Origin: Mya arenaria
Lineage: Eukaryota > Mollusca > Bivalvia > Myida > Myidae
DNA: 64,000 nt
Reading direction: 5' to 3'
NCBI RefSeq assembly: GCF_026914265.1
Contig: NC_069124.1
Location: 23,320,489 to 23,384,488, forward strand
In this document: positions 31,737 through 63,761 of the stretch, in pieces
Layout of the letters: each line of letters begins with the position of its first letter
Position numbering within the stretch: the first letter of the stretch is position 1
Translations under genes and position numbers: made by a program
The notes under the pieces: model-generated
What the model was told of the DNA's origin: nothing
Database searches by the model: none
The model's input: only the letters and a program-made list of their open reading frames with translations

Positions 31737-31839
31737 ATGCCTGTGCCAGGAAAGAGAAAATCCCCAAAAGATATTGCCCTTCAGTGGGTTGAGAAAGGCG
31801 ACCCAGATGGATTTTCTATAGACATGTATGGCTTTAAAG
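31737..31839 (+). CDS. SET gene exon 1 (N-terminus)
   Basis: Acceptor TTTCAG directly precedes the ATG; donor GTAACA at 31840; exit phase 1. Codes MPVPGKRKSPKDIALQWV and then EKGDPDGFSIDMYGFK. A K-R-K/R-S-P-x-D-I-A opening followed by a D-P-D-G-F segment is what I recall from SET proteins of this transposon-related family. Confidence 0.7.
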
Positions 31840-33634
31840 GTAACATAAATTCATCACATTCAATTATAAAATATATATCAAGTCCTATTAAGAGGGATTT
31901 TATGTTCATTGTGAAGTTTTGTGAAATCTATTGTGCTTGCTGGTATTTGCCATTTGAGCTGAAGTTGGTGTCCACAAAAGGTTATTGCATAATGAGGGTG
32001 TGTTAACAACAAGCAAAGAGAACATGTTTTTAGCTCACCTGTCACATAGTGACAAGGTGAGCTTTTGTGATCACAATTTGTCCGGCGTCCGTCCGTCAGC
32101 TGTCCGTCCGTAAACTTTTACTTTAAACGACATCTCCTCATTAACCGCTTAGCCAATTTCATCCAAACTTCACAGGAATGTTCCTTGGGTGGTCCCCTTG
32201 GAAAATTGTTCAAAGAATTGAATTCCATGCAGAACTCTGGTTGCCATGGCAACGGAAAGGAAAAACTTTAAAAATCTTCTTCTCCAAAACCACAAGGCCT
32301 AGAGCCTTAATATTTGGTATATAGCATCATCTAGTGGTCCTCTACCGAAATTATTAAAACTATCCCCCTGGGGTCAAAAATGGCCCCGCCCCGGGGGTCA
32401 CTTGTTTTACATAGACTTATATAGGGAAAACTTTAAAAATATTCTTTTCAAAAACCAAAAGTAACTATATATAATTGTCTGATGAACAAGTTATTGATTT
32501 GGTGAGGCCTTGAGGTCAGGTGTCATCAGACATAACTCTACTGGTTGAAGACGAATTTTACTGCTTTTTGGACTTTTCTACCGCTCTACTGATTGTTTAA
32601 ACAAGTTTATAGGCAAAATGGCAAAAATATTATTGAGAGAACTGGGCAGAAATAAATATATATTTATATGTGTGTATATATATAGAGATGGAGTGTTCAT
32701 ATAGCTTAACTTCATTGTGTATCATATTTGCTTGCTTGTGGGCAGAAACGCAAGTCTGCCCATTAATACAGAATATATCTTAAAGGGACTGTACACCAGA
32801 TTGAAAAAAAAAGTTTTTTATGCCCCCGAAGGTGGGCATATTAAAATCGCACCGTCCGTCCGTGTGTCCGGCTCAATAACTCGTGTCCGGGCTGTAACTT
32901 TCCTTTGTATGGACAGATTTTAAAATAACTTGCCACATGTGTTCGGCATACCAAGACAACGTGTCGCGTGCAAGACCCGTGTCCCTACCTCAAGGTCACA
33001 CTTAGGAGTTTATTCACAATGGAATGCTGCATGTAAGGACATAACATTAGGTTGTCGTGTCAGGGCTGTAACTTTCCCTTGTATGAACAGATTTTAAAAT
33101 AACTTATCACATGTGTTCGCCACACCAAGACGACGTGTCGCGTGCAAGAACCGTGTCCCTACCTCTAAGGTCAAGGTCACACTTAGGTGTTTATTCACAA
33201 TGGAGTGCTGCATATAAGAATCTAGAGTATAAGTTTTCGTGTCCGGGCTGTAACTTTCCCTTGTATGGATATATTATGAAATAACTTGCCACATGTGTTC
33301 GACATACCAAGACGACGTGTCGTGTGCAAGACCTGTGTCCCTATCTCTAAGGTCAAGGTGACACTAAGTGTTATTCACAATGGAGTGCTGCAAATTATAA
33401 GGACATAGAGTAACTTTCCCTTGTATGGATATATTTTAAAATAACTTGCCACATGTGTTCGACATACCAAAAGGACGTATTCCTTGTTAAATGAAAAAAT
33501 ACAAAATAACTGCTAAACTTAATAAATTGTAAACTATGTGGTACTTCAGTTAGTAAGTTTCAATGCATTCAGGGATGTAATTTGTCCGCGGAATCGCGAA
33601 ATTCCGCGGATCTGATGGCCTCAGGGACCCCCCC

Positions 33635-33665: not shown

Positions 33666-36600
33666 AAAAAAGTTTTTTGATGATTTAAAAACTTACTAGA
33701 GTGCTTTTGGTTGTTTATGTAGATGTTCCAATTTGCTTCACTTTGAAGTCAGAAGAACCCTCAAAAGAGCTTCTAAAAAGCCAGTTTTTCTTATACGGCA
33801 GTGTGCTTTTGACCCCCTGGCATTGTACACATCGATGCCAAGTTTATGTCAGTTTCGACAATATTCTTTTTTTCCCACTATTTTATCATATGGAGTACAG
33901 CCCCTTTAATATACAGGAAGTTTTATTTTGGCCATTTTGTTTTCCAAGATGGCTTTGTCATGCAAAAGGACCAAGGTTTTTGTGGTTACGGTACTAAAAA
34001 GCATGCAGACTATATATAAAAAAATATTTCTGAAAAATCATTGTTTCATAAGCACATTTATGACAATGACTGTTTGTTTTAGTGTTTTTGCCACTTTGTG
34101 CAAGCTGTATTTAAAAGCTGAGAAGTATTTTTACCTTGACTATTTGAAGTGATTGAAGGTGTTTCTCAGCTTAATAAAGGGCAAGTCTGGAGATTTTAAA
34201 CTTAATTTTTTGTAAAGAAATAAAGTTTTAGCTACAACAAACCAAACATCTTGTTTCTTATAATAGCCTGCCCACAAGAATAACCATGAACGCAAACATT
34301 ATTAACAAAAAAAGAATGGAACTTGGAAATTCCTGATTCATATCCTTTGTATATGTAGCACAATAACCATTTTCAACTAAATGGTGTTTCAACACATGTA
34401 GTGGATCACTGTCTGCAAGCTAGTTTTCGGTTGGAACAAACTGTTGAAACGCCTCCAGAGGGAAAATGGCTGTGTTTTCTTTAGCATTAAATACTCTATG
34501 ATGAGGTCAAACTTGTTATTTTTTCTTCTTTTTTTTACATTTTTTTGTAAATGGCCTATAGCTTATATTTTCTTATTTCGCAGACTGCGAACAAAAATGC
34601 CCTTAGTTTATCATTTGGCATAAAAATGCTTGATTTTAAACATGTTTAAATTTCATATTGAAGTTTTTAGAAGAGCATTGGAGGACATAAAATTTATGTA
34701 CTTAATATTAACATGTAAAATGTATATAGATCAAAATATGATGAATATATATATCTTTTTGAATCATATATTTGAGATATTGATTTTCAGTTAGATGTTC
34801 ATGTAAAAGTGGCAAATTTCAGGCAGAGGTATAAAGACTCTTATAGGAAGGGACCGTGGTGAATTCCTCTTGCACTATACTGGAGAGAAGATTTCAGGGG
34901 ACGAAGGCGAACGAAGAGAAAGACGTAAATCAACTGGATACCGTTTTTTCTTTGATAGTAATGGCCAAAAGTTATGGTAAGAAATTATTTTTGTTGCATT
35001 TTGTATAATTATGTTTTTAATGGATAGCATTCCGAATGTGAATAAGGATCTTCTATGTGCAGATTGCATCATTGGTTACATTTCATGGACCCATTTTAAA
35101 ATGCAGGGCTTTTTCACCTTCTTTGCTAGGGGCGGAAATAAGGCTACTTCACAATTGGAAAAAATGGCATATTTTCCCAATTTCCAGATATTTTTTTCAC
35201 AATTTCCAGATATCTTTCCCAAAAAGAAGATCTTACTTCAAAAAAATTCCATTTTGAGACATTTACGCATTTAAATTTCCCAATTTGCAGAATTTCACGT
35301 GATTAAATTTAATGAAAAGGCTAGGTCTCTTCACAATTTTTGGTGAAAAAGCCCTGAAATGTATGGCATATATATATTTGCCCTTGTACTTCCGTCAAAA
35401 TATAAATTTCTGGTTGTTATCAAAACAAAAGTTGGAAAAAATCAAAGTCTGGATAATGCTTTTTACATGTAAAGCATGTCCTAATGATTCTTATATGTCC
35501 TAGATCTGCAATAAAAAAAGTTTTATGGCTTAAACCTTTACTAACTAGAAAAATACATAAAACATCATTTTTTGAAATTAAATATAAAAATCTGTGATCA
35601 ATTTTTTATCAGCAGTCTTTTCTCAAAATCAATACATTTACATGTATAACAAACATAATTTTTGAGTCACAAACCTTTAACTACTTTCTAAATAATGTAT
35701 ATTGAAAATTAGGGATGGCAACAAGTACTCCATCGAATGTCCAAGTACTCGAGTACCAAATCACTATTTGAGTACTCGGAAAAAAATAAAATTATGTATA
35801 AAAATCACCAAATACACGATTTACACTACAAAACAATACAATACGTTTATTTCGGCTTAAACTTACAATGTTTATAGCAGTGAAAAATAACATGAAAATT
35901 TCTGAACAGAACTTAACAAAGGGATGTTATGTATAAAAAAAAACATATGCATGATATGTTAATACATTCATGTAATACATAATTGTATTAATTGTTTAAT
36001 TAATTGTCAATTTACTTAATACTGTTTAAGGAAATCCCAACAACCAGAAGGCAAACTTTTGACTAATAATGAACAATTAAAGACATAAACATCTCCAAAT
36101 TTGCCATATACTGGAATCTTTCTTAGAGTGGTTAAACTTCTAAAACAATAGCTTTGAATTATTTTTCTTTTGTAGTGTGGATGCATCAAAGGAGTCTGGT
36201 AGATTGGGAAGATTAGTAAATCATGGAAATAAGAAAGAAGCAAACTCCATCATGAAACATGTTGATGGGCATTTGTTCCTTTTTGCTTTAAGGTATTGTA
36301 TTTGTCATAAGGCCAAATAAAAAAAAATAGGTGCGTTTCAGGTAACGTTGCCAAAAAAAATTGGGTAGGTAGGTCAGAATATTTTTTTATTTATTTTTTT
36401 TTATGTTTTGATTTCAGTAACTGTTGACTCAGAAAGTAACAAAAATAAAAGTCATCAATTTGCAGGTGTATCAGTAGCTTTTAAACATGTTCCATGCTTC
36501 AAAGGAAACATTCTTTATTTGTCTGGTTAAATACTTTGACAATGATGGTTGGATTTCAACTAAGTTATGGTACACCACTCAGCTATTATTCAAGACTTTC

Positions 36601-39600
36601 CAGGAACAGTTTTACTTTTCTTTATGCACCCTTTTGCTTTCAATCACCCTCTGTAGAATGCTAACCTCCCTGTAAGATAATTACATAAAGAGTGGGACAG
36701 CAAATTTACCATATAAGCCATCAGCCAAGGAAACCTCAATGCTGTCAAGAGGACCTGGGGGTTCAGGTTTGAAGAACAAGTAACATGCAGGTTTATTGCC
36801 AAAATTTGCACACTTAAGTCTGGCATATCAATCCGAAAGTCAGTATCTGACACATTTGTGTCTGACAAGAAAATATAGTTCAAGAATTGAAATATACCTG
36901 CCACACAAGCACAAACTATCTGTAATTGACCTTAAGAGTTCGGACAATCTTAAAATTTGGACATACATTATTATTTTCAAAAATAATTTATTTTAGGTAC
37001 CTAATTTTCGGACACCCAAAGGACATCGATTGTTTACAGTTACTAAGTCTCACAGACCAAAATTATTGATCTTTATCGTTACAGTGCCTGGCTAGATTGC
37101 CTAACCGTATACATCACTGTGATTTGTTAGTTAGTTACTACCCATCCTAAACGGTTTATTGCCTGTTGAAAAGGATGTGTTATATATTTAATGGAGGATT
37201 AAAGAAACAACATGGGCAATCAAGAGATTAAGAAAACACAGACATGACATGTTTGTTAAATGATCCGCCAATAAACTTGGAAACTTGTACCACACTTTTA
37301 ATATAGACTTTATGAAGCAATAATCGTACAGTAATACTGATTGTAACATCAATAGAACAATAAAAGTCAACACATTCAATGATACATGTAACTATTTAAT
37401 GTGATGAATTAAAGTTAGAAATATAATACTTAAGTTACAATCAAAAACACCACCCAGACACATTAATCCTGCATAGCAATATCCATGCTCTCCATGAGAT
37501 CCTCGTGGGTATAACTGAGTTATGTGACGTCACACAATGTGACTGTTTGATCTGAAGCCGATAAAAGGTGTTTATTCATTTCAATGCATGTATAAAATGG
37601 TGTTGAATGGGATTTTAATTAACTTGATGAATTCGGAGGACGAAAAATTAATTATTTTAAGGTATCCGAACTCTAAGGTGAAGTACGGTAAATACATTCA
37701 GAAATCCAACTCTTAATATTGTCAACTTTACGTACATATATTTTGTATCAAATGCTTTTCGTACCCAAATCACATTTTTTCAGGGGAAATCCTGAAATCC
37801 AAGTCTAATAGTGTCAACGGTACATACATTTTTAAAAAAATGCTTTTCGTACCCAAATCACATTTTTTCAGGGGAAAATTGATTATGGTCGGCGGGAAAA
37901 AATAGGGTCGGTCGGGTAACCTAAAACAAACCTATTTTTTTATTTGGCCTAAGTTATGTTGTAGAACTATTGTGTTAGCAAGACAATTTCCATATATGCC
38001 CATATTTAGAGTATACTTAACATTTAAATATCAACTAGTATATGGAACACTTTAAACAGTTAAAAAAATGTACAACTGTATATATAGAATGAGTTGACTT
38101 TAGTTATTTGAGCTCATTAAATGTTTAAAAATTCAACTGTCACCAGTGTCACTTTTGGTCTTAGTCCCACAAAACTATTGTCATAGGCTATTTGTCTGAA
38201 TAATTGAGTTCTTTATGTTCTTAATAGGAGGCAATAAGAGAGTTAATCATGGTGTGGCTCAGCCCCACTACTTCTTGGCTAAGTGGCCGACCCTTAAGTG
38301 CTTAACAATGGTCAGCCTTCTTTTGATATTTAACCCTATTAGTTTGTCTGATGTCTGTCCAAATAAATGATAAAGAAAGTGCAGCCAATTGCCCATAACT
38401 TGAAAGTGCATAGACATTTACCTGCCATCTCTATATGTGTCATTTTGATGATTCTGTGTCTTGCAGAGTGATTGTTCATTGTTGATAAAAAAAACAGCTA
38501 TTAACATTGTTAAAGGATGTGATTTGTCCAATTTCACAGATTTCTGTGGATATATTGGCTAGAGACCAAAAAACGTTATCTGGATGCTTTTGATTGTAAC
38601 ATAAAAAATATATTTTTTTAATACTTTTTTTTTTATTAGTTAAAAAAATTAACTGGTGTCTTTTGGTTTTTGCTTAATATGTTGATAGTATTGATTTACA
38701 CTCCTGTTGACATGAAATTGAACTTGGGAGAACCCTCAAAAAGGCTTCTAAAAACAGTTTGGCCTCTGCTGTGTTTCAATCCCATTTGGATGCCTAAAAT
38801 CATCGCAAAAAAGAGGTTTCAGCCCTTTAACTGACAGATCAATCACATCCTTTGTAATGTTATGTAACACATGGCTTATAGCCTTAATACAAAGTACAAA
38901 AGTCATTTAATCACATTTTGAAAACTAAACATGTTTCAGGAACATTAAAGCAGGAGAAGAGCTTTTGTATGACTATGGATTGAAAGATCTTCCTTGGATG
39001 AAGGTACTTATAATTAGGTAGTTATACCCCCCAAAACAAAGTTTGGGGGGGGGTATACTGGAATCGGGTTGTCCGTCTGTCTGTCTGTCCGTCTGTCCGT
39101 CCGTTTTTTTGTCCGGGATTCATCTTTGTCGTTATTGAACAAATCTTTTTCAAACTTTCAGATATTAATGGCCATGATGTAAACTTGCGCCTCTGTGAAA
39201 TTGGTACGGGTCACATGACCCTGACCAGAGTTATCTCCCCTTGATGTGTTAAAGTAGGCAAAATAAGCCCTGTCCGGGATTCATCTTTGTTATTATTCAA
39301 CAAATCTTTATCAAACTTTCAGAAATTAATGGCCATGTTGTAAACTTTCGCCTCTGTGAATTTGGTACAGGTCACATGACCCTGACTGGAGTTATCTCCC
39401 CTTGATGTGTTGAAGTAGGCAAAATAAGCCCTGTCCGGGATTCATCTTTGTTATTATTCAACAAATCTTTATCAAACTTTCAGAAATTAATGGCCATGTT
39501 GTAAACTTTCGCCTCTGTGAATTTGGTACAGGTCACATGACCCTGACTGGAGTTATCTCCCCTTGTAGGCAAAATTAGCTTTGTCCGGCCTAATTCCAGG

Positions 39601-42600
39601 GCAAACAACCTAGACATGGAGGGGTGGGGGGTATTCGTTAGCCTATGGCTTACAGTTCTAGTTTTAGTATTGCATTCATGATTGTTTTCATAATGCAGGT
39701 TTACAGTTACGTTAAATGGACATTTTAATAAAAGGAAATGTTTACTTGAAATATTGTAAGCTTTGGCTTGTACAGTAAATCCTTATCAACTATACATATC
39801 TCTGATTTTGCCTACTAGGTTCATGTGTCTTAAAAAAAGTTTTTCTTAATTATGTGCATGAAACATGTGAATAGTTAAAGCATTATAAAGTCTGTTAAGA
39901 CTCATTAATTATTCAGAACAAATGTTGGTACATTCTTTCAGGACCCAGCGACTTTCACCACCTCCAAGGGTTCCAAAAACAAGAAGGGAGAAAGGAAAGT
40001 TAAGAAAAGGGAAGAGTGTGAGGGTGATGATGGGGACAACAATCGTAATAACCCAGGAATTAACACCTTAGAACAGATGGCAAACCAACTGGCCTCTGGG
40101 GATATCATCGATGCACCACCAGAGGTGAGTCATATGTTATAGAAAGTATGTTTTCCTTTCATTCCAATCTTGTTTGGAGGCACTTTGATCCTTATGTTAG
40201 ACCAATTTTGAAAATCTAATAAATTTAAGTCCCAAAAATATTCAGAATAGCCAAGGTCAAGGTCACTGTTACTAAAAATAGAAAAATGGTTTCTACTTCA
40301 TAACTTTAATTGGGCATGATATATTGTGATGAAACTTGCTGTATAGGCAGCCTCTGTGAAGACAATGCTTGTGATTGAAAATGGGGCCAGTGGAGTAAAG
40401 GTTTTTGTGCACTGTTACGAAAATAGAAAAACGGTTTCCGGACAATTTCTCAGCTAGTTTTTCTTGTCAGCAGTGTAACTTCTAAATTACTCAACAGATT
40501 TAAATAAAACAATACATGCATGATAACAGAAGATGCAGTGTGCAGTAACATTGTAGTTATGGCCTCTTTAAAGGAATGGTTTGCCATTCCTGTGTCCAGG
40601 CGGCATTTGGGGGTATTCGTCACTCCTGTGACAGCTCTAGTTTGGTATTGAAAGAAATTAAGCACAATTATTTCCCATGTACAGACCCGGGCAGTTGATA
40701 ACCTGGATGATAACTTGGATGGGAAGAATGTGAGTGATGAGGCAGTACCTAAGAGCATGCACGAGCTCAATAATGCAGCCAAGACTATGGCCATGTCAGA
40801 GGAACCGGAGAAGCCAGAGAATGAGAGGACAAATCACTTCTACAGCTATGTCAAGGTATACAGCAACAAATTTGGTCAGGTTAAATGTTCCATGGTTCTA
40901 CATGGTTTTAACAGCTTAAACCTGTCTTTGCATCTGATATTCTGGTATTACTTTGTCTTTAGATAAAATGTGAAACATTAAAGCCAAGGTTCTTCCTCTG
41001 AATTTGCATTCATGATTGTTTACATAATGCAGGTTTACAGTTACGTTAAATGGACATTTTAATAAAAGGAAATGTTTACTTGAAATATTGTAAGCTTTGG
41101 CTTGTACAGTAAATCCTTATCAACTATACATATCTCTGATTTTGCCTACTAGGTTCATGTGTCTTAAAAAAAGTTTTTCTTAATTATGTGCATGAAACAT
41201 GTGAATAGTTAAAGCATTATAAAGTCTGTTAAGACTCATTAATTATTCAGAACAAATGTTGGTACATTCTTTCAGGACCCAGCGACTTTCACCACCTCCA
41301 AGGGTTCCAAAAACAAGAAGGGAGAAAGGAAAGTTAAGAAAAGGGAAGAGTGTGAGGGTGATGATGGGGACAACAATCGTAATAACCCAGGAATTAACAC
41401 CTTAGAACAGATGGCAAACCAACTGGCCTCTGGGGATATCATCGATGCACCACCAGAGGTGAGTCATATGTTATAGAAAGTATGTTTTCCTTTCATTCCA
41501 ATCTTGTTTGGAGGCACTTTGATCCTTATGTTAGACCAATTTTGAAAATCTAATAAATTTAAGTCCCAAAAATATTCAGAATAGCCAAGGTCAAGGTCAC
41601 TGTTACGAAAAATAGAAAAATGGTTTCTACTTCATAACTTTAATTGGGCATGATATATTGTGATGAAACTTGCTGTATAGGCAGCCTCTGTGAAGACAAT
41701 GCTTGTGATTGAAAATGGGGCCAGTGGAGTAAAGGTTTTTGTGCACTGTTACGAAAATAGAAAAACGGTTTCCGGACAATTTCTCAGCTAGTTTTTCTTG
41801 TCAGCAGTGTAACTTCTAAATTACTCAACAGATTTAAATAAAACAATACATGCATGATAACAGAAGATGCAGTGTGCAGTAACATTGTAGTTATGGCCTC
41901 TTTAAAGGAATGGTTTGCCATTCCTGTGTCCAGGCGGCATTTGGGGGTATTCGTCACTCCTGTGACAGCTCTAGTTTGGTATTGAAAGAAATTAAGCACA
42001 ATTATTTCCCATGTACAGACCCGGGCAGTTGATAACCTGGATGATAACTTGGATGGGAAGAATGTGAGTGATGAGGCAGTACCTAAGAGCATGCACGAGC
42101 TCAATAATGCAGCCAAGACTATGGCCATGTCAGAGGAACCGGAGAAGCCAGAGAATGAGAGGACAAATCACTTCTACAGCTATGTCAAGGTATACAGCAA
42201 CAAATTTGGTCAGGTTAAATGTTCCATGGTTCTACATGGTTTTAACAGCTTAAACCTGTCTTTGCATCTGATATTCTGGTATTACTTTGTCTTTAGATAA
42301 AATGTGAAACATTAAAGCCAAGGTTCTTCCTCTGAATTTGCATTCATGATTGTTTTCATAATGCAGGTTTACAGTTACGTTAAATGGACATTTTAATAAA
42401 AGGAAATGTTTACTTGAAATATTGTAAGCTTTGGCTTGTACAGTAAATCCTTATCAACTATACATATCTCTGATTTTGCCTACTAGGTTCATGTGTCTTA
42501 AAAAAAGTTTTTCTTAATTATGTGCATGAAACATGTGAATAGTTAAAGCATTATAAAGTCTGTTAAGACTCATTAATTATTCAGAACAAATGTTGGTACA

Positions 42601-45600
42601 TTCTTTCAGGACCCAGCGACTTTCACCACCTCCAAGGGTTCCAAAAACAAGAAGGGAGAAAGGAAAGTTAAGAAAAGGGAAGAGTGTGAGGGTGATGATG
42701 GGGACAACAATCGTAATAACCCAGGAATTAACACCTTAGAACAGATGGCAAACCAACTGGCCTCTGGGGATATCATCGATGCACCACCAGAGGTGAGTCA
42801 TATGTTATAGAAAGTATGTTTTCCTTTCATTCCAATCTTGTTTGGAGGCACTTTGATCCTTATGTTAGACCAATTTTGAAAATCTAATAAATTTAAGTCC
42901 CAAAAATATTCAGAATAGCCAAGGTCAAGGTCACTGTTACGAAAAATAGAAAAATGGTTTCTACTTCATAACTTTAATTGGGCATGATATATTGTGATGA
43001 AACTTGCTGTATAGGCAGCCTCTGTGAAGACAATGCTTGTGATTGAAAATGGGGCCAGTGGAGTAAAGGTTTTTGTGCACTGTTACGAAAATAGAAAAAC
43101 GGTTTCCGGACAATTTCTCAGCTAGTTTTTCTTGTCAGCAGTGTAACTTCTAAATTACTCAACAGATTTAAATAAAACAATACATGCATGATAACAGAAG
43201 ATGCAGTGTGCAGTAACATTGTAGTTATGGCCTCTTTAAAGGAATGGTTTGCCATTCCTGTGTCCAGGCGGCATTTGGGGGTATTCGTCACTCCTGTGAC
43301 AGCTCTAGTTTGGTATTGAAAGAAATTAAGCACAATTATTTCCCATGTACAGACCCGGGCAGTTGATAACCTGGATGATAACTTGGATGGGAAGAATGTG
43401 AGTGATGAGGCAGTACCTAAGAGCATGCACGAGCTCAATAATGCAGCCAAGACTATGGCCATGTCAGAGGAACCGGAGAAGCCAGAGAATGAGAGGACAA
43501 ATCACTTCTACAGCTATGTCAAGGTATACAGCAACAAATTTGGTCAGGTTAAATGTTCCATGGTTCTACATGGTTTTAACAGCTTAAACCTGTCTTTGCA
43601 TCTGATATTCTGGTATTACTTTGTCTTTAGATAAAATGTGAAACATTAAAGCCAAGGTTCTTCCTCTGAATTTGCATTCATGATTGTTTACATAATGCAG
43701 GTTTACAGTTACGTTAAATGGACATTTTAATAAAAGGAAATGTTTACTTGAAATATTGTAAGCTTTGGCTTGTACAGTAAATCCTTATCAACTATACATA
43801 TCTCTGATTTTGCCTACTAGGTTCATGTGTCTTAAAAAAAGTTTTTCTTAATTATGTGCATGAAACATGTGAATAGTTAAAGCATTATAAAGTCTGTTAA
43901 GACTCATTAATTATTCAGAACAAATGTTGGTACATTCTTTCAGGACCCAGCGACTTTCACCACCTCCAAGGGTTCCAAAAACAAGAAGGGAGAAAGGAAA
44001 GTTAAGAAAAGGGAAGAGTGTGAGGGTGATGATGGGGACAACAATCGTAATAACCCAGGAATTAACACCTTAGAACAGATGGCAAACCAACTGGCCTCTG
44101 GGGATATCATCGATGCACCACCAGAGGTGAGTCATATGTTATAGAAAGTATGTTTTCCTTTCATTCCAATCTTGTTTGGAGGCACTTTGATCCTTATGTT
44201 AGACCAATTTTGAAAATCTAATAAATTTAAGTCCCAAAAATATTCAGAATAGCCAAGGTCAAGGTCACTGTTACTAAAAATAGAAAAATGGTTTCTACTT
44301 CATAACTTTAATTGGGCATGATATATTGTGATGAAACTTGCTGTATAGGCAGCCTCTGTGAAGACAATGCTTGTGATCGAAAATGGGGCCAGTGGAGTAA
44401 AGGTTTTTGTGCACTGTTACGAAAATAGAAAAACGGTTTCCGGACAATTTCTCAGCTAGTTTTTCTTGTCAGCAGTGTAACTTCTAAATTACTCAACAGA
44501 TTTAAATAAAACAATACATGCATGATAACAGAAGATGCAGTGTGCAGTAACATTGTAGTTATGGCCTCTTTAAAGGAATGGTTTGCCATACCTGTGTCCA
44601 GGCGGCATTTGGGGGTATTCGTCACTCCTGTGACAGCTCTAGTTTGGTATTGAAAGAAATTAAGCACAATTATTTCCCATGTACAGACCCGGGCAGTTGA
44701 TAACCTGGATGATAACTTGGATGGGAAGAATGTGAGTGATGAGGCAGTACCTAAGAGCATGCACGAGCTCAATAATGCAGCCAAGACTATGGCCATGTCA
44801 GAGGAACCGGAGAAGCCAGAGAATGAGAGGACAAATCACTTCTACAGCTATGTCAAGGTATACAGCAACAAATTTGGTCAGGTTAAATGTTCCATGGTTC
44901 TACATGGTTTTAACAGCTTAAACCTGTCTTTGCATCTGATATTCTGGTATTACTTTGTCTTTAGATAAAATGTGAAACATTAAAGCCAAGGTTCTTCCTC
45001 TGAATTTGCATTCATGATTGTTTTCATAATGCAGGTTTACAGTTACGTTAAATGGACATTTTAATAAAAGGAAATGTTTACTTGAAATATTGTAAGCTTT
45101 GGCTTGTACAGTAAATCCTTATCAACTATACATATCTCTGATTTTGCCTACTAGGTTCATGTGTCTTAAAAAAAGTTTTTCTTAATTATGTGCATGAAAC
45201 ATGTGAATAGTTAAAGCATTATAAAGTCTGTTAAGACTCATTAATTATTCAGAACAAATGTTGGTACATTCTTTCAGGACCCAGCGACTTTCACCACCTC
45301 CAAGGGTTCCAAAAACAAGAAGGGAGAAAGGGAAGAGTGTGAGGGTGATGATGGGGACAACAATCGTAATAACCCAGGAATTAACACCTTAGAACAGATG
45401 GCAAACCAACTGGCCTCTGGGGATATCATCGATGCACCACCAGAGGTGAGTCATATGTTATAGAAAGTATGTTTTCCTTTCATTCCAATCTTGTTTGGAG
45501 GCACTTTGATCCTTATGTTAGACCAATTTTGAAAATCTAATAAATTTAAGTCCCAAAAATATTCAGAATAGCCAAGGTCAAGGTCACTGTTACTAAAAAT

Positions 45601-53082: not shown

Positions 53083-56000
53083 GTGAGTATTGCATTTGTT
53101 TGACTGGTCACAAGTGAACCTAGAGCTGTATAGCATTTTAGATCTAGATATAAGTGTAGGAATACCCTTAAATATAGCTTTGCAAATCATTATTGATTGC
53201 TTGGTAAAACATTGTTGTTGAATAGATTGGTCAGGTGACTGGATCTTCAATATAGAAAATCAGATACAAATTAGGGGTTTAACATAGATGTAGTTTATTA
53301 ACCAGATTAACAAAATCAAATGACAAGCCTAGGGTAATTACGATATCTGAGTGTTTTTAGAGTCTGTCATAATCATGAAAAAAATAAAATGATATATCCC
53401 AGTAAGTTATACTGTTGTGTGATTATTTGTAATCTGGCAATATCAGTTGTTTTTGTTTTCAGTGCTAATACAAATGACATTAGAGTGAAAACAGCTTCAC
53501 TGCATGAAGTTTTAATAGAAGTCAATTGGCAGGGCCAGGTAATTAATCCTATGAATTTTATATACAAGACAGTATTCATGACTAAAATCGCATGCAGCTT
53601 TGCTTAAATCATGCTAAAGTAAATTCCCAATTTAAAGGATCTTAGGCTACTTTGGAAACATACAAGACCACACATTTATAACAAAAATTATCTGTTAATA
53701 AAACTTAAATGAATAACAAAACCATGTTATGTTTTGTGTTTCATTTAAATTTTATCAACAGTTAACTTTGTAAACAGAAAGTTTTGTTATTTGTCCTATT
53801 TATTCTGTCCTAGTTTTTATAATTGAAATGAAACAACCTTTAAATGTACAACTTGATATTTAATAGCAGCAAGAAGTAAAACATGAATCAAAATGAAAAT
53901 AATCTAATCCACATGTTTGATTATGGAATAAAATTGAATTGAGCTTTAAGTGAATTGTTGTAGCTCTAGTGAGCCTCTATGGGCATAAATGTGAGCAGGC
54001 TGAACAGGCTTCCATTGAGGATCTTGTTTAAAAATGGTTAATGTATAATGTATTTCATTGAAATTTTGTACGAGGCTTTCCAGCCATAATGCTATCTGAA
54101 ATAAGCAAGTAAGATAACTAGATCATGCATTGATGCAAGTTTTGACCCTTTATTTTTTTACTTAGAAATTCTGGTTAAAGTTTTGCTTCGAGTACTTCAA
54201 GTCTTACAATTGCATATCCCAATTACCATTTTTTTATATTGTTTAAACATTTTACAAGGATTATCAGCCATTAAGTACAAAAAATGGCCGTTTGTTTTTT
54301 ACTTAAAAATCTGGTTAAAGTTTTGTGTGCAACTTATAACATTAACGTCCATATTTCAATAACCACTGGATTTATTACATTGAAATTTTATTCAAGGCTT
54401 CTCAACCGTTTTAACAACTGAAATAAGCAAGTAAGATAACTTGAGCTTGCATTTAATTAAAATCAGGGCCTTTTATGTTTTTACTTTACACAAATTATGA
54501 TTAAATTTTTGCCATTTAACCACAATAAAGTCCATATCACAGTAACCACTTGATTTATGACATTGAAACTTAATACAAAACACCAACTAAACTAATGAAG
54601 CAAGATCACACTTTTTTGCATTAAATGCAAATATATATGTCCTTTGACTTAGAAATTCTTGTTAAAGTTTGATCTTGATTTTCATCTTATTTCACTTTTG
54701 ACAGGCACTATATTGCATAAAAAATTTAAAGACAAAGAGGCATCAGGCGTGCTGTCCGTCAACAGCTCTTGTTTATTTTTTAATCATAATTTCTGATTGG
54801 TATTATTCACAAAGCACATGCAGTTTATGTATCTCGAACTTGGTCTTTAATCATTTGTCTACTTCAGGCCATTATTGAGTACTAATTGATTCCCAATATT
54901 AAACTATGCTGCTAGTAAATTTATGTTGTTGTTTGCAGATTTTTTTGGTTGATGCACGAACAAGCAGTGTTAGAACCCTTAAGAACAATGACCTATTTGA
55001 AGTTGGAGGAAGAACATTTAGATGGAATCTTCTGAAAGGTAAAAGCTCGATTGAAAGAAGTTGTTGTTGTAAAAATGACTAATTCATTAGTCGGCATACT
55101 TTTTCCATGTCTTGCAAGTCGGATACTGATTTAACATCTTGTCATGTTCAGTTTTGCCTAATATGCTAACAACAAGGTTTTCAAACAGAAAAGTCTAGTT
55201 ATTAGATTGGTAATTGCATCTAGCTAGGCAGTGGGTGGTTATAAGCACAGACTAAACTATTAGTTTCTCCTTAATAACTATAGTATGTATAGGATGTTGA
55301 AACCACATTTTGTGTGTAGCAAACTTCCAAAGATCAAGAACACTATAAATGATATAGAACAATTAAATTTGCATTTAAAATCATGGTTTTCATAGATTTT
55401 TAGCATTAAGTTTGTATACTGTTAAATATATGTTTTTTGGTGTTTTATATGATTGTGTTTGTTTATATAATTTTAATGCTTATTTTTTAACTTATGTAAA
55501 CTTAATCTTCTCACAGATGGTGTTGGGACCCCAGACACAGTCTTTAGCATAGGTTCATCCTTAACTAGCCCCAAGTCTGGTGGATCAAGCATACAACAAT
55601 GTAAGGGGAAAAAAAGAAATATTTAATATTTTATACTAAAATAAAAAATTTGCTAATGTGTAAAATCAATACTCAAAATAGTATCTTGAAATAGAAATGA
55701 TTTGAAAAGTCAAGGTGGCGTTATTTGACTGCTGAATTTTTTTTTATCTTTTCAGTTTGGGTATGGGGATATTGTTTTGGTGTTGACTGTCATTCTTTCT
55801 TTCCATCTGTCCTGAACGATATTCACTTTTGGACAACTTGTGGGTCACATCTTAATAAAGTTAGATCACTAGGTCCTTATTATTTGGTCTGCCACCATAT
55901 TATGGTAATGATTAGTCTGATGACATTTAAACTTGGACAGAATGTTACCCTTGATGACACCTCCATATTTTATTAGTGGGTCATATGGGGTCCAAAGCTA

Positions 56001-59000
56001 GATCACTAGGTCAAATTTTGAAACATTCTAGAGGCAGTATATCTGGTCCACTAATTATGAAACTTGAATCAGAAACCCTACCTAAAAAAATAGGTGCTGA
56101 CCCTACTGTTTTGATTACGGTTAGGCCTAAAAACAAAATTGTTTGGTTAGGGTTACATCCTTTTCAAAAATAGGTAGGGTAGGTAGGCTTTTTATTTATT
56201 TTTTTATTAGGCTTTATATAAGAATGTCATTTTCATCATTGGAGAATGGTGTTAAAGTTATCTTCTATATAAGCAATTAAAGTTTTAAACTACATATTGA
56301 AAAGCAAAAAAAAAAAAGAAGAATTTTTTTTTTTTTTTTTTTCATTTTTTTTTTTCAAACTGACTATAAAAACGTTAGAGTCGGCGCCTATTCCGTAGGT
56401 AGGGTCGGGTAACCCGAACCAAATGTATTTTTTTTTTAGGCCTTAGTAATTTTTTATTATTTTTTTATGTTTAGTTTATAACCTTTAAGGTGTTATACAG
56501 AAGATTACTTTAACATAATTATCTTGTTCTTACATAAAGCCTAATATAAAAAAAAATATATTTATATATATAAAGCCTTCCTACCCTACCTGTTTTTGAA
56601 AAGGATGTTACCCTAACCAAACCATATTTTTTTTGGCCTTATGATATGTATGTTTGTAATTCGTGGCGGAAAATAGCTACTTGAGCTAATGTTTTTTATT
56701 GTCTTGTACCAGCCTTTCAATAAAGATTCTGGTATCTTTATACTCATATATCTTTTCTGCAGGCAACACCTCTCCTGACAGACTTGATTCAGGCAGCAGT
56801 CCCGCCCAGAGGAGCATGCTTGAACTCCTCAGTATAACAGATGCTGCAGCTAAGGCAGTAAACAAGTCCAGCCACTTGGCTACCAGTCATGGATTCCAAA
56901 GATCACTGACCCAGTCTGGTCAATCAAGCTGCTGTGAGGGTTCTCATGTATCTTGGCCTATGGACCCCTTGACTCAAACTGGTCACAGTCAAGGCTCCCA
57001 GAGTTCACAGCAAGATGACAGACTGACCTCCCAGCAGCTAAACGATCGGTTTGAACACATTAATGTTTTTCCAGATTAAATGCTATACCTAAGTCATGAA
57101 AAATGCTTGAGAAAATTCTCATGGCATTGTTTTATGCAAGTCATGCAACAGTTAGATTTGTCATTTACCATCTGAACAACCATATATTTATCACAAACAT
57201 CATTTTTATTAGGCTGTTGTACACACTTTACAACAAAGGGTATTGTTTTCATATAAAATGTTTATTAACTACTGCTTTAAATAATCATCAGAATGAAATT
57301 TATTTGTGATTTTCATCAGAATTGTTCTGCTTGAAACAAAAAGATTTTGTTTTGAAACATTCCCATTGCATTGATTATCTTAGTGGTTTAAAATTTCCTT
57401 ATATTTTGATTTACAAGATATTATTTCTGCAACATTTTTTATCTGCAACATTTTATAAATTCAACAATTACATAATATCATTGAAATATTAGGTCTGGGA
57501 AGTCAGTTGGTTCTGCCAGATCAAGAGGGATGTCGGTAAGGTCTCGTGACAGTGAAGTGTCGGTAACTTCAGATGTCAGTGTGGATTCAGGTGTATCCAA
57601 ACAACCACATATTAGCGCAGCATCAGGGGTGTCCGTCCATAGTGCAAGGTCTGCACTATCCCTGGGAAACAGGCAGTTTGGTGGCAAGGTAGGTATTGTG
57701 GCATGGTCATATGAAAACATCTTGCCTGATTTATTTATTTATGTTGTCTTAGAAACAATGCAATCAGAAAATCACTATTAGAGAATAGAATGAAAGTTTA
57801 AGTATTAAAACTGTTAAATATTCAGAAAATGATAGACTGGTATAATAAAAAACAGTCTTCTAATTATGACACATTCATATGTGTAATGTTGACTTTCTTT
57901 TAATATATGTGCATTCATACATATAATGTATCTTTAATGTCTATTCAAATCAATGTTTTATTCACATTGGCCTGTTTAAAAAATGTTGTTGTTTTAAGTT
58001 AGTTACCAAGATATGTTTAATATCAGAGGAATAAACCCTCGAAGTACATCGTTTTTTATTCTGATAATTTTTCTTTCTTAATTGTCTTCAACATGTCATT
58101 TTAGGCTGTCAAGGATCTCCGCCATGACAGTGGAGTGATCAGTAAAACCCAAACCCAAAGTGACAGTAAGGCTAGGGGGACAATTCTTGCTGGTTCAGAA
58201 TTTGGAGAATACTCATATGATAGAAGTTCAGATGATGGCATATCTGTGAGTGATATACTTATAAAATCCACCCATGAAAACAATGAACACAGTGTCATTG
58301 AAAATAGGGCTAAACAGGCTGAGAAAAATGGGCATTCTAGTAGCACAATGTCAAAATGCTTAAAAACGTCAAACAGAGTAGAAATTTTTAACTCAAGTGA
58401 GCCACAAAAAGTGAAAATATCTCAAAAGCATTTAAAAGAAATTAAGTCTCCTTATTATGATGATAGCCCAAGAATTTCAGTCTCATATGATTGTAAAAGG
58501 CCTTCGTCATTGTTAGAAGGCAAACATAGTGGGCGACAGATGGTTTCTTCAGATGGTCAAAATTCAACAGACAAAGATGCTGTGATCAGTGTTAATGACT
58601 CAGATCGTAAAAAAACAGTTGGTGTGAAAATGAAATTCACAAAAGGGACAGATAGTCAGTACAATAACCAATTTGAAGTGCAGAAAGAGAAAAAATCTGC
58701 TGAAAAATGTTTCGAAGATGTAGACATTGCTAAAGCCGAACAGAGATGTGACTTTGAGAGGAAATCTCAGTTTCATAATGCTAGCTTACAGAATGCTTCT
58801 AGTGATTACAAACACCCATCAACATATCAGTTACCCACATCAGGTAAAGGACATGTAAATGTGATAGAATCAGATGTCCACTTTGTATGTACCACCAAGC
58901 CTCCAGTGGAGCAACATACTAATCGGAAATGTCTGCCAGGGATGGCTGACTTGTCAGGAGGTCAACAGATTCCTGCCCTGCTACATGATCCTGAAGACAG

Positions 59001-62000
59001 CATTCAGATTATATCTGCCCATGGTGTGTATAATGTGGGGGTAGCATACAGAAAAAGGGATAAAAAAATAGCATCTCATTTTAAACTGGTTTGTTTTTCT
59101 GAAATATTTAAGCTGTTGGAGGAACTTTGGTTAAAGTTTAAGGGCACTTTGTGTCTGGTTAAAGGTTTAGGGCAAATTGGGATTTTTGCTTATAAACTCC
59201 TATACAAGTCACTCATATTTCACACAGTTCATGACCATCACACTAAAATATAACTGCCGTCGTTTGAATAGGCGGTCATTCGATAACTGGCGGTCACTTG
59301 AGGTCCAAGCTTTAGTACTGACCATTATTCCTTCTATTTTCATATAAAATATACTAAAACTGAATCGAAACCTAATAAGTCTGGGAGACACGAATGATTG
59401 CCAGTTCCAAATACACAAATCATGCACACAACTTAATGCTTACCTCTAGCCCTAGGTCATAATTTCACACATTTTCCCAAAAGCAAGTTCCAAGAAAAAC
59501 AAACAATTGGCAGGTTTTTCTTTTACATTTTTTTCATTAATTTATGACAGATTTTAACCTTATGAGCCATTTTCACAAAGCAATACTTAGTGATAACTTC
59601 ATACTTTGAAAATACATTCTAAGACATTTCATTTCAGACTAAAAAGGAAAAATATATTCTGAGGAAAATTTCATTTCAGACTAAAATGGAAAAATACATT
59701 CTAAGACATTTCATTTCAGACTAAAATGGAAACTTGGGTCATTAAAACATCAGATCACTCGAGGTTTTTGCTGAGTGAGAGTTCCCAGCGTCCTCGAGTG
59801 ATCACAGCATTACTGTATTAGGTTGCATTACTCCATATTATCTTTAATACAGATATTTTAGCCCTTTATCGATTTAGAAAGTTTTGTTCAGGTTCATCAC
59901 ACAATTATGTAACTTATGTATAAGTTATGGCCTGTGAAAATATTGTTTAAAAATTCTAGGTTTATTTACAGCATCAGGAGCAGTCACCTACAAGCCAGAC
60001 TTTGTTGATAGTGAGTGCAGCATAGAATCAGATGTATCTGAAGATTTTCCAGTGCTGACAGATGGGAAAGGTAAACCAAGGGATTTTCGCTTATAAACTC
60101 CTATACCTTCATTCAAGTCACTCCTATTTCACACAGTTCATGACCATCACACTAAAATATAACTGCCGTCGTTTGAATAGGCGGTCATTCGATAACTGGC
60201 AGTCACTTGAGGTCCAAGCTTTAGTACTGACCATTATTTCTTCTATTTTCATATAAAATATACTAAAACTGAATCGAAACCTAATAAGTCTAGGAGACAC
60301 GCATGATTGCCAGTTCCAAATACACAAATCATGCACACAACTTAATGCTTACCTCTAGCCCTAGGTCATAATTTCACACATTTTCCCAAAAGCAAGTTCC
60401 AAGAAAAACAAACAATTGGCAGGTTTTTCTTTTACATTTTTTTCATTAATTTATGACAGATTTTAACCTTATGAGCCATTTTCACAAAGCAATACTCAGT
60501 GATAACTTCATACTTTGAAAATACATTCTAAGACATTTCATTTCAGACTAAAAAAGAAAAATATATTCTGAGGAAAATTTCATTTCAGACTAAAATGGAA
60601 AAATACATTCTAAGACATTTCATTTCAGACTAAAATGGAAACTTGGGTCATTAAAACATCAGATCACTCGAGGTTTTTGCTGAGTGAGAGTTCCCAGCGT
60701 CCTCGAGTGATCACAGCATTACTGTATTAGGTTGCTTTACTCCATATTATCTTTAATACAGATATTTTAGCCCTTTATCGATTTAGAAAGTTTTGTTCAG
60801 GTTCATCACACAATTATGTAACTTATGTATAAGTTATGGCCTGTGAAAATATTGTTTAAAAATTCTAGGTTTATATACAGCATCAGGAGCAGTCACCTAC
60901 AAGCCAGACTTTGTTGATAGTGAGTGCAGCATAGAATCAGATGTATCTGAAGATTTTCCAGTGCTGACAGATGGGAAAGGTAAACCAAGCATGTGTAGAC
61001 ATATAATTGCCAATATTCATGTTGTTATAAAAAATTGTAGTGTAACCAAAGTCATAATCCAATGTAATATAAACAGTGAATAGTATTTTATACTGAAATA
61101 AGTGTTGGTTTAAAACACAAAATATCCACAGCCAGGTACACCAACCAACACTATAACTACACTCTGACACTCTCAGACATTTTTCGTGGAATAGTCCTTA
61201 AATGTGCAGACTAAAATACCCATTTTTTATTGAATCTTCATTGACCTGATTTGGCCTTGCGTTGACTCGAATCTTTAAAATATTAAATTGATTCTTGGTT
61301 AAGTATACTTTAGAGGCAGGTCAAGCTAAATATGTTTAGCGGGTCTCACAAGATTTAATTCAGAATCAATCTACACTTTATTATTGGTGGATGCTTATAA
61401 CTATGTTGAAATAAAGATGTTGGGTAAATGTTTTATTTAAATAACTGAAGGATACTTTAATTTTTCAGCATCCATGGCAGTTATGAGAAATCTTCAGAAG
61501 AAATATTACAACATGAAGGTAACTGTCACTAACATAAGAAAATTCATCAACTAAAGACTTGTAACAGTATTTGTCTGTCAGAGCAAAAAACCACCATTTT
61601 TAAAGCCCCCTGACCAGGAAGTGCCCATATTTAGTAATGGTGACTGGTCATTGTCTGTCAGCTGTTTTGTGTGTAGCATCATTAAGTGGCCCCCTGGGGT
61701 CAAAAAAGGCCCGCCTTAGGTGTCACAAGAAATCTTTGAAATTATTCCTTGTCTGGAAGCACTAGCTGCAGACCCTTGATATGTTGTATATAGCATCATC
61801 TTTGAAAACAAATTTCAATGTTGTTTTTGTAGAGCAATTAAATTAGGACCATAAACACTCCCATGTAAGTGATAGGCCATCATAGCCTTCTTGTCATGAA
61901 GAGTGGTGTTATTGACTTCGGCTAGGTTTGTGACATCTCTATTTCAGGAAAAGTACTTGAAGCTGACGAAAAAAACAAAAGTTTCTGAAGCAAGTGGCGG

Positions 62001-63761
62001 TCATGACAGTGTAAAATATAAAAGTTCGGGATCCAGAACATGTCATGATGTACATGAAACTGTAACAAGTAGTAAGTGGATTTTTGAAGAATACAAGCAA
62101 TAATTGTATGCTGTTTGTTCTGTCAGCAAAGGGCAGACACTAATAACTTGATTAGCATTATTTGCTAGTGGTATTGTATGTTATGCCTACAAAACAATTC
62201 TAAAGAATATATCATACTATGTATTCCTGTTTTCTGGATCCATCTTTATTTACTATTTTGAAATTTATGCATACTGGTAAGATTATATTCATAGAAATTA
62301 TGGCCAATCCTTTCCCATACAGGGTACATTTATATTCTTGTGCACACTATTTGCAAAGCCTCTGGTTTTAACAAAAATTGAGCATTACACATGATGACAT
62401 TAATCATTCTTGATTTCAAACAACCCATGGTGTGTAGTCTGAAACAACATTCTGTGTCCAAGTCATGTGCGGGTCCCTTCATAACTCCAGTGATTGGTGT
62501 ATTTCTATTGTCTGTTTTCAGGTGGGAAAAAAAAGAGAATATATGACAAACGCCTGGCTTGCTTATACTGTGGGAAATTATATAAACACAGAATTATGGA
62601 GCATATGTATCTTGCCCACGGAGATGAAAAGGAAGTAGCAAAAGCATTGAGTACCTCCAACAAGGAAGAAAAAAATGTCATTGTCTTGAAACTGAAGAAC
62701 AAAGGAAACTTCAAGCACAATGTTTCCGTTCTTCAAAATGGCGGTGAACACTTCATTGTATGCAAGAGACCAAGTAGACGTCCTGTAATACCAAGTGAAT
62801 TCTTGCCATGTGTGTACTGCTATGGTTTTTATCAGAGAAAGGAACTTTGGAGACATTTGAAAACTTGCTGCTTAAAAGTAATTCATAGCACAGAACAGAA
62901 GAATAGTTTTACGGCTTCTGCAAGGGTTATGCTACGGGCCGCAGTAAGCACAGATCCGAAGGGAAATGATGGTGCACAACTTTTGGAACTTTTACAGACA
63001 AGAAATGATGTCATTGGCAATGAAATTATTAATGACAGTCTTATTGTCAAGTTTGGGAAAGTGCTTTTTGAAAAACTAGGAAGCCGACGAAAAAATGATG
63101 TATCACAAAGAATGCGGCAACTTGGGCGATTAAAGACACATATAAACTCTAACCAGATAGAAAAGATTGATCAGCTATCTGATATGATCAATGGCAAGAA
63201 CTTTGATAATGTAGTTGAAGCTGTTAAAGAGCTGGCAGAAATTCATGAAAACCAGGAGAATGTTTTTCAATTTGAGAAGCCTGGTCTTGCTTTGAGATTG
63301 GGTCACAATATAATCAAAGCAGCGGACATCAAATTTGGAATGTGCATGAGGAATGATGATGATGATGATGTGGGTGCAAACCAAGCAGAAACATTTAGCA
63401 AGTTTTATAGAAAAGAATGGACTGATTTAATCTCCTCCGTAGCATTAGCGTCTCTAAAAACAAACAAATTTAACAAAGGGGATGCAATGCCTCTGACTGA
63501 TGATCTAATCAAACTGCGAAACCACCTCTCTTCAAAAATGGCCACACTGACTGAAAAGATGAACGATTCCCCAACCTACCCAGTATGGCGTGAACTAGCA
63601 GAATCAACAATGATACGAATACTTCTATTAAATAAACGCCGAGGAGCTGAAGCATCAAAGTTGCTACTGATGGCCTATACTGATCGACCGAACTGGAAAG
63701 AGACCACTAACAAAGAGGTTTTTGACAGTCTCTCTTCACTGGAAAGAAAAATGTTCTCAAG
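52995..63761 (+). CDS. FHA-like / zinc-finger / tyrosine-recombinase-like protein (3' part of composite gene, truncated by window)
   Basis: Twelve exons that agree in phase at every junction: 52995-53082, 53463-53538, 54939-55038, 55517-55600, 56763-57048, 57493-57688, 58105-59023, 59972-60070, 60881-60979, 61469-61518, 61948-62071 and 62522-63761, about 1,120 codons. In order: a degenerate FHA-like domain (residues 1-90), a Ser/Gly-rich linker, a polar 306-codon exon, a duplicated 33-residue acidic piece, a basic segment, two zinc fingers (CxxC-x10-H-x4-H and CxxC-x11-H-x3-C) and the first part of a tyrosine-recombinase-like core ending just after its Arg-I motif. From memory, SET + these fingers + this core occurs in one family of animal proteins, so this is likely the 3' half of the gene at 31737. 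The first exon needs one nucleotide from its predecessor, while the 50601 exon leaves none. A nuclear, chromatin-linked role is inference. Confidence 0.7.
53463..53538 (+). CDS. FHA-like exon 2
   Basis: Acceptor TTTCAG, donor GTAATT. Codes (S)ANTNDIRVKTASLHEVLIEV and then NWQGQ. N-D-I-R-V and the following L-H-x-V-x-I correspond to the C-D-I-R-I and S-x-x-H-x-x-I strands of FHA domains. The phosphate-binding Gly-Arg is replaced (MGSANT). Confidence 0.65.
53820..54780 (+). repeat. Dispersed repeat in FHA intron
   Basis: Three loose copies of a unit of roughly 200 bp with CTGGTTAAAGTTTTG and ATTACATTGAAATTTTATTC (54170-54700), ending in GGCGTGCTGTCCGTCAACAG at 54750. Non-coding. Confidence 0.5.
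54939..55038 (+). CDS. FHA-like exon 3
   Basis: Acceptor TTTGCAG, donor GTAAAA, phase 0 in and 1 out. Codes IFLVDARTSSVRTLKNNDLF and then EVGGRTFRWNLLK. L-x-D-x-x-S-x-x-x-x-L-x-x-x-D-x-F-x-V-G-x-R-x-F-R-W fits the C-terminal strands of an FHA domain with a shortened N-G loop. Confidence 0.7.
55517..55600 (+). CDS. Linker exon after FHA-like domain
   Basis: Acceptor CACAG, donor GTAAGG, phase 1 in and out. Codes (D)GVGTPDTVFSIGSSLTSPK and then SGGSSIQQ. Gly/Ser-rich, no domain. Confidence 0.65.
56129..56641. mobile_element. Inverted-repeat element, GGTTAGGGTTACATCC type
   Basis: Left GGCCTAAAAACAAAATTGTT, then GGTTAGGGTTACATCC and TTTTCAAAAATAGGTAGGG; right CCCTACCTGTTTTTGAAAA, GGATGTTACCCTAACC and ATTTTTTTTGGCC, in inverted order. 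A second element end (TAGGGTCGGGTAACCCGAAC) is nested at 56391-56446. Non-coding, inside an intron. Confidence 0.75.
56763..57048 (+). CDS. Ser-rich linker exon
   Basis: Acceptor TCTGCAG, donor GTTTGA (weak), phase 1 in and 2 out. Codes NTSPDRLDSGSSPAQRSMLE and onward to SQQLND(R). The weak donor is accepted because the phase fits the next exon exactly and the frame otherwise ends 10 codons later. Confidence 0.6.
57493..57688 (+). CDS. Ser/Arg-rich linker exon
   Basis: Acceptor ATTAG, donor GTAGGT, phase 2 in and 0 out. Codes SGKSVGSARSRGMSVRSRDS and then VSVTSDVSVDSGVSK-type repeats. Likely disordered and a possible phosphorylation substrate (inference). Confidence 0.65.
58105..59023 (+). 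CDS. Long polar exon (306 codons)
   Basis: Acceptor CATTTTAG at 58097-58104. The open frame runs past 59200, but a donor GTGTGT at 59024 gives exit phase 1, as needed for the next exon. Begins AVKDLRHDSGVISKTQ; rich in Ser, Lys, Asp and His; no domain recognised. It ends near SIQIISAH. Confidence 0.65.
59972..60070 (+). CDS. Acidic exon, first duplicate
   Basis: A 99-nt exon, acceptor TTTACAG, donor GTAAAC, phase 1 in and out. Codes (A)SGAVTYKPDFVDSECSIES and then DVSEDFPVLTDGK. Confidence 0.7.
60881..60979 (+). CDS. Acidic exon, second duplicate
   Basis: Identical in coding sequence to 59972-60070, including both splice sites. As the exon is symmetric (phase 1/1), including both adds 33 residues without a frameshift. 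They could also be mutually exclusive. Confidence 0.7.
61469..61518 (+). CDS. Short exon
   Basis: Acceptor TTTTTCAG, donor GTAACT, phase 1 in and 0 out. Codes (A)SMAVMRNLQKKYYNMK. Confidence 0.6.
61560..61830. repeat. Dispersed repeat fragment in intron
   Basis: Contains GTCATTGTCTGTCAGCTG, CCCCCTGGGGTCAAAAA and TATATAGCATCATCT, which it shares in part with 32310-32400. Non-coding. Confidence 0.5.
61948..62071 (+). CDS. Basic exon before zinc fingers
   Basis: Acceptor TATTTCAG, donor GTAAGT, phase 0 in and 1 out. Codes EKYLKLTKKTKVSEASGGHD and then SVKYKSSGSRTCHDVHETVTS. A Lys-rich stretch that could serve as a nuclear localisation signal (inference). Confidence 0.65.
62522..63761 (+). CDS. 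Zinc fingers and N-terminal part of tyrosine-recombinase-like core
   Basis: Acceptor TTTTCAG at 62515-62521, donor GTGAAA at 63762, 413 codons. Near the start is CLYCGKLYKHRIMEHMYLAH (C2H2), at about residue 95 CVYCYGFYQRKELWRHLKTC (C2HC). They are followed by a helical region (KFGKVLFEKLG, RMRQLGRLKTHI) and by ILLLNKRRGAEASKLLLMAY, in which R-x-x-E followed by L-x-x-L fits the first catalytic Arg box of tyrosine recombinases. It ends in SLSSLERKMFS before the donor; the TGA just after is intronic. The H-x-x-R and Tyr boxes must be in exons beyond the window, so catalytic status is unknown. Confidence 0.75.

Follow-up and report, generated by a model that had tools for sequence, protein, structure and literature searches.

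SETMAR is a single primate gene in which a SET domain is joined to a mariner DDE transposase, and DUF3435 is the domain of the captain protein of the giant Starship elements of fungi. Cryptons are DNA elements mobilized by a tyrosine recombinase (YR), some of which have turned into host genes, according to the available part of Kojima and Jurka (2011, PMC3212892). The accessible text on the nimavirus-type giant elements of crustaceans describes YRs with C2H2 zinc fingers and simple-repeat-specific insertion, with sesarmid nimaviruses sitting in (AT/TA)n and the users of (AT)n relying on a Ginger2 DDE enzyme (PMC10871703). The locus described here lies in a stretch of 64,000 nucleotides of the Mya arenaria genome (termed the window; C3:23320489-23384488 in the 1.216-Gb, 18-contig assembly searched, contigs being denoted C). 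It is, with good confidence, the long gene of a giant YR DNA transposon lineage that targets dinucleotide repeats and has a built-in SET domain, a fusion predicted here. The protein would quite probably run in the order KMT5A-like SET domain, expandable tandem repeat, possible FHA domain, two zinc fingers, YR and an exon that is Myb-like by eye. Copies set in TG or CA repeats are termed the TG clade, and those set in AT repeats, to which the window copy belongs, the AT clade.

Thirty-three plus-strand exons are chained by their splice sites, and a script check shows AG/GT borders on every one. The first block has 19 exons (SET, seven two-exon units and one further exon) and reads 1008 amino acids without a stop in fitting phases; the second has 14 exons (FHA-like, linkers, two zinc fingers and YR core) and reads 1275 amino acids without a stop, also in fitting phases, its last two exons sitting beyond the window edge. 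The first-pass annotation had claimed an ordered plus-strand set with phases agreeing within each half, and the order of SET exons, seven tandem units, paired fingers and N-terminal part of the YR is as it proposed. The exons, as read from their splice sites, are as follows.

31737..31839, plus strand, exon A, start of SET (MPVPGKRKSPKD...), identical in the NCBI model LOC128227385
34823..34976, plus strand, exon B, SET
36176..36292, plus strand, exon C, SET with the GRLVNH motif, also by PDB match
38940..39003, plus strand, exon D, end of SET with the YDYG motif, also by Pfam
39942..48844, plus strand, tandem array of 7 units, each of two phase-0/0 exons (E1 61 codons, 56 in unit 5; E2 57 codons)
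50479..50601, plus strand, exon E3, present in LOC128227385
52995..53082, plus strand, exon F1, FHA-like by eye, no Pfam FHA match
53463..53538, plus strand, exon F2, FHA-like by eye, present in the model MAR_022951
54939..55038, plus strand, exon F3, FHA-like by eye
55517..55600, plus strand, exon G, linker
56763..57048, plus strand, exon H, Ser/Gln-rich linker
57493..57688, plus strand, exon I, Ser-rich linker
58105..59023, plus strand, exon J, long linker
59972..60070, plus strand, exon K1, phase 1/1
60881..60979, plus strand, exon K2, duplicate of K1
61469..61518, plus strand, exon L
61948..62071, plus strand, exon M
62522..63761, plus strand, exon N, two zinc fingers, core-binding part of the YR and first catalytic box
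65453-65720 (window-extended coordinates), plus strand, exon O, SNSLRKYIATVCQ, outside the window
66034-66229 (window-extended coordinates), plus strand, exon P, LAHTVKTHLGFY, outside the window

The joined SET exons match the Pfam SET profile over its entire length (1-105/105) with an E-value of 7.9e-15 and 55.6 bits (cut-off 22.4), and in the PDB the 14 top rows are all KMT5A/SETD8 (3.9e-23 to 1.5e-21) with the next match at 1.2e-11 (among the best 60 of 95 matches). Only the last SET exon is detected by Pfam in the unspliced window DNA (0.084). The possibility of a chance motif was rejected, as the weak unspliced score is due to the introns and the match is full length once spliced. A tblastn search with a provisional human KMT5A sequence gave noise only and was not used. 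The NH motif of KMT5A is present in the window and C7 SET models, and YDYG is also present in the window copy, so that the KMT5A-like SET domain with both motifs proposed by the first-pass annotation, starting at 31737, is borne out. In the related protein P0034 and five further motif-readable relatives (P0119, P0133, P0147, P0157/8 and P0161) ND replaces NH, and the catalytic competence of the SET domain may therefore vary between copies and relatives.

Exon N contains the paired fingers followed by the N-terminal part of the YR with an R-x-x-E box ('NKRRGAEASK') and ends at 63761, in agreement with the fingers and recombinase-like core initially noticed there. Downstream, SNSLRKYIATVCQ supplies the second catalytic Arg and LAHTVKTHLGFYRLQ the His and Tyr in exons O and P, and the window copy has both Arg, the H and the Y of the YR active site. 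The second Arg and Tyr exons that the first-pass annotation expected are thus found just past the window, and the His of HxxR that it also expected is absent, the motif reading S/T-x-L-R instead; conserved columns of the YR alignment are those of R, K, the second R, H and Y. A YR fold with core-binding and catalytic domains is predicted for a relative, and this assignment rests on a structure model because no recombinase came up when the PDB was searched with a profile of the YR alignment. No reverse transcriptase was recognized by eye among open reading frames (ORFs) of at least 85 amino acids in the C3b region, where no dedicated search was made.

Of 7992 candidates scored in a search with the TG-clade ORF, 1008 count as relatives at E up to 0.001. 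Pfam confirms a SET domain in six of the nine scanned (P0034, P0038, P0114, P0119, P0133 and P0147), and these SET-YR members come from Mya, Solemya, Apostichopus, Danio, Silurus and Chanodichthys. Ten proteins are returned by a search with the front end of the window gene: two models of this locus, two plant SET proteins and six others (P0156-P0161; two from Acropora and one each from Merluccius, Nothobranchius, Astyanax and Mya) that match both SET and YR. The last of these, P0156, is labelled a 'KMT5A-like protein' and has 2194 residues; it lies on C7 of Mya and combines a SET match with a long repeat and a YR C terminus. Predicted SET-YR fusions thus extend over four animal phyla, with bivalves, fish, one sea cucumber and one coral represented, and the SET, finger and recombinase order that the first-pass annotation ascribed to uncharacterised animal proteins is found in them. 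In P0156 a B-box match (3.9e-4) falls below the cut-off, the SET match is partial (positions 1-91) and the repeat motif is present in 27 copies. A scan of viral contigs gave 35 pattern stretches, none of which was confirmed.

Within the Mya genome, 61 YR matches (the best candidates and a lower bound) group into 42 loci. A SET match lies upstream on the same strand within 35 kb at 17 of these loci, with none on the opposite strand, and two SET matches lie downstream of YR loci; the 35-kb limit was set after the SET-YR distance of the window itself was seen, and the SET list comprises all 50 matches of one search and 22 of 73 of another. This arrangement indicates, at the level of sequence, that SET and YR belong together.

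That the locus is a Crypton that acquired a SET exon is improbable. Cryptons, too, are DNA transposons mobilized by a YR, and they lack inverted repeats (PMC3212892, available part). Against this, neither the window exon nor the TG-clade ORF has a DUF3504 match at E up to 1, a point made on profile matches (the DUF3504 scan of other members covers the best 25 of 54 families), the SET fusion occurs in four animal phyla, the elements are 30 kb long with many introns, and the term 'microsatellite' is absent from the available part of PMC3212892.

The TG-clade copies illustrate how the element is bounded. Regions of 40 kb on C2, C3 and C17 (n=3) have more than 30 kb in common at 98.6-99.9% identity, with the YR located mid-element in the C3b region. 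The same left junction, consisting of the repeat followed by CCTTGTACTCGC, starts seven copies, and seven copies stop at one common right point. Both ends are present in six copies, which measure 30.3 kb on C2 and C10, 33.2 kb on C14 and C3, 33.3 kb on C17 and 36.1 kb on C11. A TG or CA repeat adjoins 7/7 left and 7/7 right ends, and there are five distinct flanks per side rather than seven because some flanks are shared. The chromosome that carries the C10 copy also has two empty sites matching its flanks, and there the halves of the match meet inside a (TG)n tract (left 98.2% and 97.9% over 666 and 665 bp; right 98.2% and 96.5% over 1107 and 1086 bp). The recombinase ORFs of C11, C14 and C17 are identical, and that of C2 differs by one silent base. 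The label 'still mobile' given by the first-pass annotation is well supported for these relatives by their common ends, microsatellite flanks and empty sites, and is not shown for the window copy.

At the tips, 15 of the 38 occurrences of GAGGAC or its complement in the 33-kb element fall in the terminal 400 bp at either end, and these subterminal motifs are possible, putative finger binding sites. Next to the repeat, the two tips have TTGTA in common (by eye). As TG/CA repeats adjoin both ends, any terminal direct repeat of 4-6 bp is indistinguishable from the target. In a separate observation, the C2 flank matches an empty C10 site at 98.2% over 5480 bp, as if flanks had been carried along or exchanged later.

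The left end of the window copy is defined by two features.

23812..23849, no strand, (AT)19 microsatellite, presumed insertion target; an A/T-only run precedes 14/14 left ends examined
23850..23874, plus strand, left terminus of the element (AGTTTTGTAATACCGTACATGTGGG); 15 genome matches to the generalized motif, 0 in the reversed control

The upstream DNA of the window matches a C17 paralogue from the (AT)19 tract inward, and sister copies on C7 and C9 begin with nearly the same sequence as the window copy. The generalized 25-bp terminus is found at 15 sites genome-wide and at none when reversed; TATAT directly precedes 14 of the 15, and the A/T-only run before the 14 ends examined measures 10-72 bp. 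Flanks compared over up to 300 bp are distinct in 12 cases among these 14, unrelated save for two pairs. Going inward, a same-strand SET match is reached within 15 kb at 9/14 ends compared with 0.006 expected, and the fifteenth end, on C17, has one 3.0 kb inward. The left ends and inward SET matches of the AT clade place the window from 23850 rightwards in the element and make the SET exons part of it, consistent with the tie to a mobile element that had been suspected from the outset. The view that the window holds no element, since it has no tract of at least seven TG or CA, was overturned by the AT clade. Extended position 76648, where homology to the C5 copy stops without a repeat tract, was not accepted as the right end. 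Two very common repeats occupy 22500-23850 and 29391-31010 of the window (at least 20 copies each, 94-100% and 94-95%, respectively), and a DNA query of 22.5-32.4 kb was swamped by common repeats. The (AT)n tract at the left end of the element forms the end of the first of these repeats, so the target tract may be the tail of that repeat.

Comparison of the finger/YR exon between the window and C5 copies gives 23 nonsynonymous and 6 synonymous differences, a ratio of nonsynonymous to synonymous change per site (pN/pS) of 1.02, and between the window and C1 copies 12 and 5 (0.62); for three sister copies pN/pS is 0.27-0.54 on 5-9 changes. The C5 copy contains a stop, and some stretches of the window are missing from it. 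With a pN/pS of about 1 against this decayed copy, the window copy is probably older and possibly inactive. Nothing in the data argues for a conserved host function, and the word 'domesticated' in the first-pass annotation finds no support in the C5 comparison. The alternative of a host gene that was domesticated, does not move and has spread through segmental duplication would account for the long introns and for the flanking DNA common to some copies, but is very unlikely, as copies on six chromosomes stop at the same junctions inside microsatellites, 12/14 AT-clade flanks are distinct, empty sites exist and the pN/pS values are those given above.

The tandem array of seven units lies where an expanded repeat had been noticed, directly after the SET exons. 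Summed over 21 pairs of units, the exons differ at 36/7344 positions and the E1-E2 intron at 22/11760; the exons differ more than the intron and are thus not more conserved. A tandem repeat directly after SET recurs in Silurus (5 units), Chanodichthys (5), Apostichopus (7 of one motif), the Mya C7 protein (27 of one motif) and the TG-clade copies. Exons K1 and K2 (59972-60979) form an approximately 0.9-kb tandem duplication, a second place where copied exons keep phase.

The FHA-like fold proposed for exons F1-F3 is not upheld. Pfam gives no FHA match at E up to 10 for the three exons joined with the correct splice and nothing for unspliced DNA of 50.4-56.5 kb. The PDB search returned no relevant match and the pairwise comparison with an oyster relative nothing significant, both with a query having two residues at a junction where the splice gives one. 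That relative, P0074 of Ostrea edulis, has an FHA domain (PF00498, 1.2e-4) ahead of its recombinase. As a separate observation, P0074 combines FHA, a short tandem repeat and YR in one protein in which no SET was detected.

Approximately 6 kb after the YR exons is the Myb-like exon (L009:8067-8420), for a fragment of which Pfam gave no match. A second tandem exon array (DEQPAETQSSMPVNQRQKRPRL...) at L009 6447-7754, downstream of the window, lies between the YR and Myb-like exons. Several EGF-like exons (MEGF-type, by eye) on the minus strand at 5248-7400 of the window belong to an unrelated gene, and Rfam returns nothing at gathering score.

Several observations weigh against a transposon gene of this design. 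The window gene and element are read from sequence and gene predictions, the right end of the window copy was not found, and the array exons show no sign of constraint. A precomputed SET is present in 7 of the best 120 of the 1008 relatives, many of them fragments, and none is detected at 25 of the 42 YR loci. The C10 recombinase frame is broken, the C2, C3b and C10 copies have common right flanks and C3b, C17 and C14a common left flanks, and terminal inverted repeats do not rise above shuffles (62/300 reached the score). No 0-to-1-phase link joining the two blocks was found between 50601 and 52995, and in the NCBI prediction LOC128227385, which equals the first block over 1008/1008 residues and continues for 13 residues of F1 to a stop, the E3-F1 junction is out of frame.

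The last two points bear on whether the window holds two neighboring genes, one of which would comprise SET and the array and end in F1 while the other would encode a zinc-finger recombinase. LOC128227385 does end in F1 across a junction whose phase does not pass, and MAR_019844, a model of the C5 copy, begins at the fingers. This division is nevertheless improbable. A prediction on the same chromosome, MAR_022951, joins the first SET exons, array, FHA-like exons and linker exons (it is without the remaining SET exons, and Pfam detects no SET in it), and thus disagrees with LOC128227385 on how the blocks connect. P0156 and P0034 are fusions, as are the Solemya protein and those from fish, coral and sea cucumber, and the short model is explicable by alternative splicing of one gene. 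The two blocks presumably form one protein in the window copy.

For a giant YR transposon with a built-in SET domain, a mechanism can be proposed in which the fingers would bind the subterminal motifs and the YR would cut at the element tips. The element, probably as an excised circle, would be joined to a microsatellite at the matching TG or AT step. For its part, the SET domain might methylate a histone or partner at donor or target chromatin, which could help expression, target access or timing; a chromatin-targeting system was suggested by the first-pass annotation, and the target observed is a DNA repeat. The exon arrays could expand by unequal exchange without frame shift. We lean modestly toward a broader proposal, an ancient, undescribed animal superfamily of giant YR transposons with a KMT5A-like methyltransferase built into the integrase and clades specialized for TG or AT microsatellites, in which SET may act on donor or target chromatin by marking or opening it. 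The fusion raises the question of whether a mobile element modifies chromatin to choose the place or time of its integration; if true, this would be a transposon writing its own histone code. A natural YR using TG or AT repeats could inform genome engineering, and the family would account for many fish and invertebrate records that are labelled 'uncharacterized protein'.

No published description of a SET-YR element was found in the openly licensed literature. The clam elements resemble Cryptons, as described in the available part of PMC3212892, in YR mobilization, the lack of long terminal inverted repeats and possibly a short identical sequence at both termini, but they are 30-36 kb long with many introns, have SET and a tandem array in the same protein, target dinucleotide microsatellites and show no DUF3504 match (E up to 1) in the window exon or TG-clade ORF. 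They are similar to Starships, in the sources available, as giant YR-mobilized DNA elements in eukaryotes, and differ in being in an animal, in showing one long gene in place of a captain plus cargo genes, in the SET domain and in the absence of a DUF3435 match (E up to 1) from the window exon and TG-clade ORF. Giant YR-driven elements are known from fungi; here an animal is seen to have such elements, 30-36 kb long, some of them in near-identical copies and one with an empty site to compare. The nimavirus-type elements are, from the accessible text of PMC10871703, the nearest precedent for repeat targeting, with C2H2-finger YRs and simple-repeat targets, whereas they are viruses, the sites used by their YRs are telomere repeats or 28S rDNA, and no SET domain was found in that text. 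The closest solved relatives of the SET domain are KMT5A/SET8, a histone H4 lysine-20 methyltransferase (among the best 60 of 95 matches), the clam domain differing in being embedded in a recombinase protein and in having ND for NH in several relatives. SETMAR likewise joins SET to a mobile-element enzyme, whereas the clam-type fusion is with a YR and recurs in many copies and several phyla. The kind of element, a YR transposon, is therefore known, and the giant, animal, SET-fused and dinucleotide-targeted variant appears to be new.

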